A DNA stretch of 64,000 nucleotides from Burkholderiales bacterium (GTDB lineage Bacteria; Pseudomonadota; Gammaproteobacteria; Burkholderiales; Burkholderiaceae_C): positions 1 to 64,000 of the forward strand of contig CANGHK010000027.1 of assembly GCA_947453625.1 (NCBI GenBank), read 5' to 3'. The notes under the pieces are model-generated. The model saw nothing but the letters and a program-made list of their open reading frames with translations, had not been told where the DNA came from and ran no database searches. This document shows, one piece after another, positions 55,599 to 57,149 of this stretch; positions within the stretch are counted from its first letter, which is position 1, and every line of letters starts with the position of its first letter. Made by a program: the position numbers and the translations under genes.

Positions 55599-55742
55599 AT
55601 GGCTGAGAAAGTAAATCCGTCAGGGCTGACGGACGAAGAGTGCCAAGAGTTCCACAAGTACTACATCCAAGGGTACTTGCTGTGGGCCGCTGGCGCATTT
55701 TTCGCCCATAGCCTGGTGTGGATCTGGCGTCCCTGGTTCTGA
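55599..55742 (+). CDS. pufB: Light-harvesting LH1 beta polypeptide
   Basis: A 47-residue antenna polypeptide: a polar N-terminus ([17 protein letters not shown]), one transmembrane helix, and the C-terminal VWIWRPWF. His37 in FFAHSLVW binds bacteriochlorophyll, and His19 in EFHKYY is the other conserved histidine. GGAGG precedes the ATG. It is the first puf gene. Confidence 0.97.
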
Positions 55743-55765
55743 GCAAATAAACAGTGGAGGCCACC

Positions 55766-55990
55766 ATGGCACACGCAATCACGCCGGCACACCCGGTTCG
55801 GCAAGAAGGCTCTCTCGAGGGCTCACGCAGCATCTTCGTCGGCATCTTCATCGCCTTCCTGATGCTGGCGCTGGTGGCGTTGCTGTGCGGCCAAGACTGG
55901 CGCAATTTGCTGCCGGGCGCAGAGGGCGCGCGATCGGTGCTGCACGGCGTCAAGTCAGCCGTCTACACCGTGATGTCCGAGTTGGTTTAA
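55766..55990 (+). CDS. Unrecognised 74-residue single-helix membrane protein between pufB and pufA
   Basis: This gene sits between the LH1 beta and alpha genes, 23 bases after pufB and 15 before pufA, with a strong TGGAGG ribosome site before its ATG. The product has a polar N-terminus with R12 and R21 (probably cytoplasmic), a helix at about 23-41 (SIFVGIFIAFLMLALVALLC), then QDWRNLLPG and an amphipathic C-terminal helix ending in MSELV. It lacks the His of LH alpha or beta and is not PufQ by motif. Size and layout recall PufX without sequence similarity that I can see. A role as an RC-LH1 accessory subunit is inferred. Confidence 0.8.
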   Translation: MAHAITPAHPVRQEGSLEGSRSIFVGIFIAFLMLALVALLCGQDWRNLLPGAEGARSVLHGVKSAVYTVMSELV

Positions 55991-56005
55991 CGAAAGGAAA
56001 TGAAC

Positions 56006-56194
56006 ATGTGGCGTTATTGGAGAATTGTCGATCCCCGCAAGGCGATCATCGCGACCGGCCTGCTGATCGCATTCGTCTCGACCAGCATCCATCTGATCCA
56101 GATCAGTGGCGATCGCTACAACATCAACAGCTGGCATCCCGACACGGTGAAAGCCGCCAAGGCGGCGCAAAACGCGCCGATGCCGGCGAAGTAA
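56006..56194 (+). CDS. pufA: Light-harvesting LH1 alpha polypeptide
   Basis: A 62-residue antenna polypeptide: [13 protein letters not shown] at the cytoplasmic side, one helix with bacteriochlorophyll ligand His29 (TSIHLIQIS) and a C-terminal tail ending in [10 protein letters not shown]. The ATG at 56006 is chosen over 56000 because AAAGGA lies seven bases upstream and the family starts MW(R/K). Confidence 0.94.
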
Positions 56195-56214: not shown

Positions 56215-56253
56215 GGCGGGCGCTGCCGGGCCAACCGGTCCAGCGCGCCTGCC
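56215..56253 (+). promoter_or_regulatory. pufA-pufL intercistronic hairpin
   Basis: A stem GGC-GG-GCGCTG (56215-56225) pairs with CAGCGC-CC-GCC (56241-56253) with two single-base bulges; the loop holds a further CCGG/CCGG stem. It lies in the 127-base gap between pufA and pufL. In Rhodobacter capsulatus hairpins at this place stabilise the pufBA message and set the antenna to reaction-centre ratio; the same is inferred here. Confidence 0.6.
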
Positions 56254-56321: not shown

Positions 56322-57149
56322 ATGGCCATGCTGAGCTTTGAACGCAAATACCGCATCCGCGGTGGCACCCTGGTCGGCGGTGACCTGTTCGACTTCTGGA
56401 TCGGCCCGTTCTATGTCGGCTTCTTCGGCGTGACGACCGCGTTCTGCGCGATGCTCGGCACGGCGATGATTCTTTGGGGCGCCGCGATGGGCCCGACCTG
56501 GAATCTCTGGCAGATCAACATCGCGCCCCCCGACCTGTCCTACGGTCTGCGCCTGGCGCCGATGATGGAAGGCGGGCTGTGGCAAATCATCACGGTCTGT
56601 GCGCTCGGTGCCTTCGTCTCCTGGGCGCTGCGCGAGGTCGAGATTTGCCGCAAGCTGGGCATGGGCCTGCATGTGCCCGTGGCCTTCAGCTTCGCGATCC
56701 TGGCCTATGCCACGCTGCAGGTGATACGCCCGGTGCTGATGGGCGCCTGGGGCCATGCCTTCCCCTACGGCATCTACAGCCACCTGGACTGGGTCAGCAA
56801 CACCGCCTACCAGTACCTGCACTTCCACTACAACCCGTGGCACATGATTGCCGCGAGCCTGTTCTTCGCCACCACGCTGGCGCTGTCCATGCACGGCGGC
56901 CTGGTGCTGTCGGCCGTCAACCCGAAAGCCGGTGAGGCGGTCAAGACCCCCGAACACGAGGACACCTTCTTCCGCGACCTGATCGGTTATTCGGTGGGCA
57001 CGCTGGGCATCCACCGGCTGGGCCTGTTCCTGGCGCTGGCCGGGGTCTGGTTCGGCGCGGTCTGCATCGTGGTCAGCGGGCCCTTCTGGACCGGCGCCTG
57101 GCCGGAATGGTGGGGCTGGTGGCTGAACCTGCCCATCTGGCGCCAATGA
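56322..57149 (+). CDS. pufL: Photosynthetic reaction center L subunit
   Basis: A 275-residue membrane protein with five helices. [36 protein letters not shown] is the conserved start; histidines in YSHLDWVSN (special-pair bacteriochlorophyll), PWHMIAA and IHRLGLF (iron ligands) are present. It binds the primary donor and QA-side pigments together with PufM. Confidence 0.98.

Follow-up and report, generated by a model that had tools for sequence, protein, structure and literature searches.

A predicted pigment-less paralogue of the LH1 beta subunit is encoded between pufB and pufA in Burkholderiales

A small gene that we term X stands between pufB and pufA in most Burkholderiales puf loci read here, and profile comparison indicates that its product is a paralogue of the LH1 beta subunit. 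The nearest relatives are the long-tailed LH1 betas, which X matches over both helix and tail. X is confirmed as a real and conserved gene. In the window, by which we mean the whole stretch of 64,000 nucleotides analysed, the frame begins with an ATG at 55766, its stop ends at 55990 on the plus strand, and its 74 codons encode a protein of 74 aa that appears to be pigment-less. Although the puf operon is a textbook system, its second gene is an unexplained frame in most of these loci. The frame has been reported before; what we worked out is its family placement and the link to the LH1 ring that this placement suggests.

In the window, a Shine-Dalgarno GGAGG (55756..55760, plus strand) lies 5 nt before the ATG of X. 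Its pairing energy of -9.3 kcal/mol equals the pufB value (pufA reaches about -5) and exceeds in strength the 5th percentile of -8.5 kcal/mol obtained from 500 random 22-mers of the window (median -3.2). A sequence-only reading of this DNA had described a 74-codon gene with a strong ribosome site between pufB and pufA, which these values bear out. The neighbours are on the plus strand as well. pufB (55599..55742) encodes a short-tailed LH1 beta with the bacteriochlorophyll histidine and scores 67.1 bits with the NCBIfam pufB model (cut-off 61). pufA (56006..56194) plainly reads as LH1 alpha by place and sequence while scoring 29.6 bits with NCBIfam pufA, below the cut-off of 35; the ATG at 56006 gives MWRYW and a start at 56000 is possible. 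The pufB stop and the X start are 23 bases apart, and 9 or 15 bases separate the X stop from the pufA start. pufL (56322..57149, plus strand) served as the anchor of our survey. The LH1 pair of the window and its near kin is unusual (55599-56194 in the window): PufA scores too low for the cut-off of either Pfam or NCBIfam, and the usual NWLDG is missing from it. In the pufL tree the kin with this pair group together on a supported branch.

Three intergenic stretches were folded. A strong stem was found between pufA and pufL, as a predicted stem-loop at 56215..56253 (plus strand), and neither between pufB and X nor between X and pufA, so that pufB, X and pufA are probably carried on one message segment. 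The stem-loop would be the probable 3' border of this segment. A stem-loop between pufA and pufL is expected for differential puf message stability.

Frames in the same place have been on record since 1994. The excerpt of PMC12817894 used here cites Nagashima 1994 for ORF2 of Rubrivivax gelatinosus, located upstream of pufA and of unknown function, states that it is without the alpha bacteriochlorophyll histidine and rejects it as the source of pufA2. In Roseateles depolymerans, as described in an excerpt of PMC10037100, the locus tag of ORF74 falls between those of pufB and pufA, the three are co-transcribed as the major 1-kb puf transcript, and they are the three most reduced loci in a sigma-factor mutant, with ORF74 at 2.34 % of wild type. 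ORF2 and ORF74 are presumably X, given the place of both between pufB and pufA and the equal length of ORF74; the excerpts report them without function or family. The 1-kb transcript ties the message of ORF74 to that of LH1, in line with the earlier proposal that the operon place of X would couple its dose to LH1. The same excerpt lists, by locus tag, an unknown frame between pufM and pufC (RD2015_RS05175, ORF77); pufM and pufC overlap in the window, leaving no room for an equivalent.

To describe the distribution of X we used several sets of genomes. A first search of 60 genomes returned X matches with E <= 4e-9 in 11 of them, the window genome included, each next to pufB and pufA. The survey of the order, anchored on pufL, covered 399 Burkholderiales genomes drawn evenly, of which 48 had pufL; the stretch from pufB to pufA was readable in 45 of these and ran into a contig end in the other three. 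The order pufB-X-pufA was found in 37 of the 45 readable loci and X was missing from 8, which rules out a lack of conservation in related puf operons. The 80 best-ranked of 589 loci by closeness to the window PufL formed a second set, which is biased to near kin and overlaps the order survey in species; it contained 74 loci with pufB-X-pufA, one with X-pufA at a contig end, four that were cut off and one without X (Variovorax sp. J22R133). Genus names among its records include Rubrivivax, Limnohabitans, Rhodoferax, Polynucleobacter and Hydrogenophaga, and Rubrivivax benzoatilyticus carries X. One puf locus with X came from a metagenome bin labelled Bordetella parapertussis, a label that is probably wrong. 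Outside the order we found pufL in 32 genomes, 5 from the class and 27 from the phylum, and X was absent from all 31 of their loci that were classed. The statement of the sequence-only reading that pufB and pufA are normally adjacent is right for the 31 loci outside Burkholderiales, whereas inside the order pufB-X-pufA is the rule.

The 124 fetched X frames, some of which represent the same locus twice, reduce to 115 distinct proteins, two of them cut short. Length is 73-75 aa in 116 of the 124 frames. Agreement among the 115 proteins is concentrated in the tail (residues 45-74; 55898..55987, plus strand), the most conserved part of the protein, which reads WRxWLPGAEG...GVKxAVYTxMS. The best conserved positions are W45 (114 of 115), P50 (114), G51 (115), A52 (113) and E53 (111), followed by V62 (110), V66 (113), Y67 (110) and S71 (114), while residues 2-20 show hardly any agreement. 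AlphaFold2, run with 33 sequences, predicts helices at 15-43 and 58-73 with low confidence (mean pLDDT 64), and the tail has a hydrophobic moment of 0.34 in the window X, with a median z of 1.6 against shuffles over 122 proteins. The sequence-only reading had proposed one helix plus an amphipathic C-terminal helix, and both are consistent with these predictions; its positively charged N-terminus is not clearly present, since the stretch ahead of the helix has 2 Arg but also 2 Glu.

Selection on X was estimated by the Nei-Gojobori method from the 877 of 6670 pairs with an X dS of 0.1-1.2, the rest being dropped and the retained pairs not being independent. The median dN/dS of X, 0.45, is above those of pufB (0.18) and pufA (0.22), indicating that X evolves faster than either neighbour. 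Within X, pN/pS is highest in the N-terminal part (0.84), lower in the helix (0.64) and lowest in the tail (0.38). The faster evolution and the nearly unconstrained N-terminal part are what a chance or decaying frame might display, but we give that explanation practically no weight: it is ruled out by the constant length, the conserved tail, a dN/dS below 1, the strong Shine-Dalgarno, the presence in 37 of 45 loci and the transcript reported in the excerpt of PMC10037100.

The family placement rests on profile alignment. In hhalign, 12 X proteins aligned with 11 long-tailed LH1 betas at 99.6 % (score 115), over 70 columns, at full length and without a gap. Against 9 short betas the result was 96.4 % (score 46), and the control with 8 PufA gave 14 % (score 20). 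With a larger X set PufA reached 39 % and a score of 23.1, which we take as the noise level; LH1 alpha was rejected as the source of X, PufA against X being at control level. In phmmer searches of the PDB with the window X, LH1 betas came first (8z81_B at 6.7e-6, 9m8m_B at 2.4e-5 and 7xxf_B at 1e-4), and a relative of X matched 7xxf_B at 1.1e-9. The same two queries revealed no X-like chain among the PDB entries, which may include no betaproteobacterial core; the PDB PufL chain nearest to the window PufL is 9m8m_L. The X profile, run against 41 whole genomes of phototrophs without X, produced 35 matches in 29 genomes (E <= 0.001), every one just upstream of pufL by comparison of positions. Its bit scores were 61-85 for six Burkholderiales long betas and 23-59 for 15 other long betas. 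X was earlier held to be without sequence match or relatives; these alignments to LH1 beta, and the earlier reports of the frame, overturn that view.

Family models place X below every threshold. No Pfam or NCBIfam family reaches its cut-off with X; the matches of the window X to DUF4383 (17 bits against 27) and DUF2254 (11.2 against 28.8) were discarded for this reason. The window X had no LHC or pufB match (PF00556, NF040862) listed at E up to 10, four of its relatives scored 15.8-20.3 bits against the NCBIfam cut-off of 61, and one scored 13.2 against the Pfam cut-off of 23. The helix region of the window X (residues 21-44; 55826..55897, plus strand) matches the LH1 beta helix without gaps, and codon 39 (55880..55882, plus strand), a Leu, occupies the place of the beta bacteriochlorophyll histidine. 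That histidine is absent from 111 of 114 distinct X proteins. Together with the scores under the cut-offs, its absence led us to reject X as a pigment-binding LH1 beta antenna. The sequence-only reading was correct that a pigment-binding histidine is missing at the ligand place, though the window X does have His at residues 3, 9 and 60.

Glutamine is able to ligate chlorophyll. The residue at the old ligand place is Gln in 83 of the 114 proteins, Thr in 7, Ser in 7, Leu in 6, Lys in 4, His in 3 (each at a different locus) and another residue in 4, and the His and Gln counts leave room for pigment binding by X. X could on these grounds be a special antenna subunit that holds (bacterio)chlorophyll through Gln, with a shifted absorption. 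We regard this as quite improbable, as Leu, Thr, Ser, Lys or Ala stand there in the rest, the window X included with its Leu, and the N-terminal beta segment GLTxxEAxEFH, which carries a second His, is gone from X.

The beta is short, with 10-12 residues after the His, in all 115 tabulated pufB-X-pufA loci. Two kinds of X-less loci are seen in the order survey: five of the eight have a long-tailed beta that bears the His, and the other three, which share one genus code, combine a short beta with a tailed ORF upstream of pufB. The X-less Variovorax sp. J22R133 likewise has a long-tailed beta with His. A tail-bearing member of the family is thereby present in 45 of 45 readable Burkholderiales loci, as X with a short beta, as a long beta alone or as the upstream ORF. 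For these counts betas were classed from the sequences themselves in X-less loci and from the table in X loci, as automatic tail counts misread some X loci and the automatic long/short label is wrong for some betas whose tail contains Ala-His (L161, L175, L181 and L189). Where at least 1.4 kb upstream could be read, a tailed ORF or PufQ was found in 0 of 106 loci with X and in 23 of 40 without it (the sets overlap). The 31 loci outside the order divide into 11 with a tailed upstream ORF, 10 with PufQ (9 by motif and one by Pfam), 5 with a long beta only and 5 with none of these, so that a tail is not needed universally. Five Burkholderiales long betas (L122, L124, L137, L140 and L141) have tails that end in P-Y-x-[FYM]-M or P-Y-M-M, resembling the P-F-x-F-M ends of upstream ORFs; no separate ORF of this type was found in their genomes.

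The upstream ORF occupies the PufQ position; it occurs in loci of alpha- and gammaproteobacteria and in a small number from betaproteobacteria. One-helix tailed ORFs of this kind were noted at L163, L157, L173, L181, L187 and L194, among other loci. Five members scanned against Pfam and five against NCBIfam reached no cut-off. X is clearly related to this unnamed family by profile: the hhalign result is 98.4 % (score 75), a score that 0 of 150 column permutations reach, and the upstream ORF aligns with the long-tailed beta at 98.5 %. A scan of 25 whole genomes with the profile of the upstream ORF recovered X itself in the 16 genomes that have it, in some together with the adjoining pufB, and two weak matches (E 0.003) that contain stops. 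Only the long beta was recovered from the 6 long-beta genomes, and the remaining 3 yielded the ORF, one of them with its pufB as well. Against canonical PufQ the upstream ORF reaches 30 %, a score attained by 3 of 150 permutations, which makes a link only suggestive; the upstream tailed ORFs may be distant PufQ orthologues. X itself had no match to Pfam PufQ (PF05398) among the X proteins scanned, and PF05398 exceeded its cut-off in 3 of 33 genomes searched, none with X. Homology to a known assembly factor such as PufQ, raised earlier as a point to check, thus finds no Pfam match for X, while the kinship to the unnamed ORF in the PufQ position is clear.

These relations bear on one account of the function, in which X is a PufQ-like assembly or pigment-supply factor that guides the delivery of tetrapyrroles or carotenoids, or the early assembly of LH1, and is not kept in the finished core. 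We hold this account at somewhat below an even chance. It is favoured by the kinship with the tailed ORF and by the mutual exclusion upstream just described, and in excerpts of the literature PufQ acts on ferrochelatase and on LH assembly (PMC5725709) and the Rhodopseudomonas palustris beta is without density for its last 13 residues, which are lost by cleavage (PMC7806223), a hint that the tail of a beta may have its role ahead of assembly or in the course of it. However, X aligns with the PufQ profile at 38 % (score 24), near the PufA control, and with larger sets at a score of 22.7 that 0 of 150 permutations reach and that PufA against X matches with 23.1; hence no homology between X and PufQ is claimed. 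X also follows pufB instead of preceding it, and the C-terminus of PufQ is predicted to be cytoplasmic (excerpt of PMC5725709), whereas a beta tail would be expected on the other side of the membrane.

The descent of the family was approached with a tree of 65 hand-chosen rows (20 X, 17 long betas, 19 short betas and 9 upstream ORFs) over 75 columns, which cannot be rooted and has too few columns for many of its forks. X (92/92) and the upstream ORFs (99/99) each form a clade of their own, long betas are intermixed with short ones, and the Burkholderiales long betas branch next to X. We infer that a tandem duplication of a long-tailed beta took place in or close to Burkholderiales and that one copy lost its tail and the other its pigment ligand. 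Both states coexist under genus code g54, with X in five loci (L113, L114, L117, L138 and L152) and a long beta in three (L122, L137 and L141). When the X label is mapped on the pufL tree, thinned from 157 rows to 74, it requires 6 changes; only 1 of them is forced by well-supported branches, so that gain, loss and transfer of X are not told apart there; loss or transfer is likely. We tentatively extend this scheme, with less than even confidence, to a family born from LH1 beta that would have given rise, as the pigment ligand was lost, to dedicated helpers of the core complex, namely X, the upstream ORF in other classes and perhaps PufQ. The tail would be their shared working part, kept in each Burkholderiales puf locus on X, the upstream ORF or the beta.

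For X itself we hypothesize, with a slight lean in favour, that it is a duplicated pigment-less mimic of LH1 beta that acts through its tail in the build-up or architecture of RC-LH1. Its relation to beta implies the orientation of beta, a topology read by homology, the charge count being weak: the N-terminus would be inside and the tail on the periplasmic face. X would pack against LH1 alpha or the growing ring, and its tail would take over, during RC-LH1 build-up or somewhere in the finished complex, the task that long betas perform with theirs; the short beta would then be a simple pigment carrier. Several observations count against this reading: the scores of X under the Pfam LHC and NCBIfam pufB cut-offs, the His or Gln at the ligand place of many X proteins, the faster evolution of X compared with its neighbours, the 5 of 31 loci outside the order that have neither X, long beta, upstream ORF nor PufQ, and the three X-less genomes of one genus that manage with a short beta and the upstream ORF.

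Alternatively X may be a permanent subunit of the ring, with one or more His-less helices in a beta-like place of LH1 that would terminate, interrupt or close off the pigment array and shape a quinone path, the tail lying in the periplasm near PufC or PufM. We find this possible and on balance rather doubtful. The beta homology would suit such a subunit, as would the presence of X on the pufB message (excerpt of PMC10037100) with a Shine-Dalgarno as strong as that of pufB, although one shared message fits a helper equally. Other cores place small accessory helices in this manner, in the excerpts seen, with protein W and PufX (PMC7806223) and gamma-like helices (PMC9640540) as examples. On the other hand, no X-like chain was found in the PDB (which may include no betaproteobacterial core), the helix of X is less constrained than its tail, and betas that carry this long tail assemble into normal closed rings, as in Rhodopila (7XXF, excerpt of PMC9640540), which tells us that the tail alone does not open a ring.

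Placing X as a pigment-less LH1 beta paralogue makes its function testable. The pattern formed by X, the long-tailed beta and the tailed ORF upstream of pufB points to an antenna protein whose roles were divided between a pigment carrier and a helper. It also hints at how PufQ may have originated, and it suggests that the tails of LH1 betas, which have received little study, have some function.

Among known systems, X resembles PufX, protein W and LH1 gamma or gamma-like proteins in being a small accessory membrane protein of core complexes, if our reading holds, and it was rejected as a member of each. The X proteins scanned had no match to PufX (PF11511), and one Q-like upstream-ORF protein scored 12.1 bits, below the cut-off of 25; PufX stands after pufM (excerpts of PMC9640540 and PMC7806223), X between pufB and pufA. 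The gamma-like protein of Rhodopila has 22 residues, is inverted and is encoded elsewhere (excerpt of PMC9640540), compared with the 74 aa of X and the orientation that its beta kinship implies. Protein W (PufW) has three predicted TM helices (excerpt of PMC7806223), whereas the low-confidence model of X has one helix of membrane-spanning length and a tail helix. PufQ (PF05398) is similar to X in size, in its one helix and in belonging to the puf operon, and differs in standing before pufB. The upstream tailed ORF shares size, one helix and a similar tail with X, but its other place in the operon and its separate clade argue against counting X as a member. Closest is the long-tailed LH1 beta (for example 7xxf_B of Rhodopila globiformis, 8z81_B and 9m8m_B), which has, like X, one helix, the WRxWLPG motif and a similar tail; it retains the GLTxxEAxEFH segment and the bacteriochlorophyll His that X lacks, while X adjoins a normal short beta.
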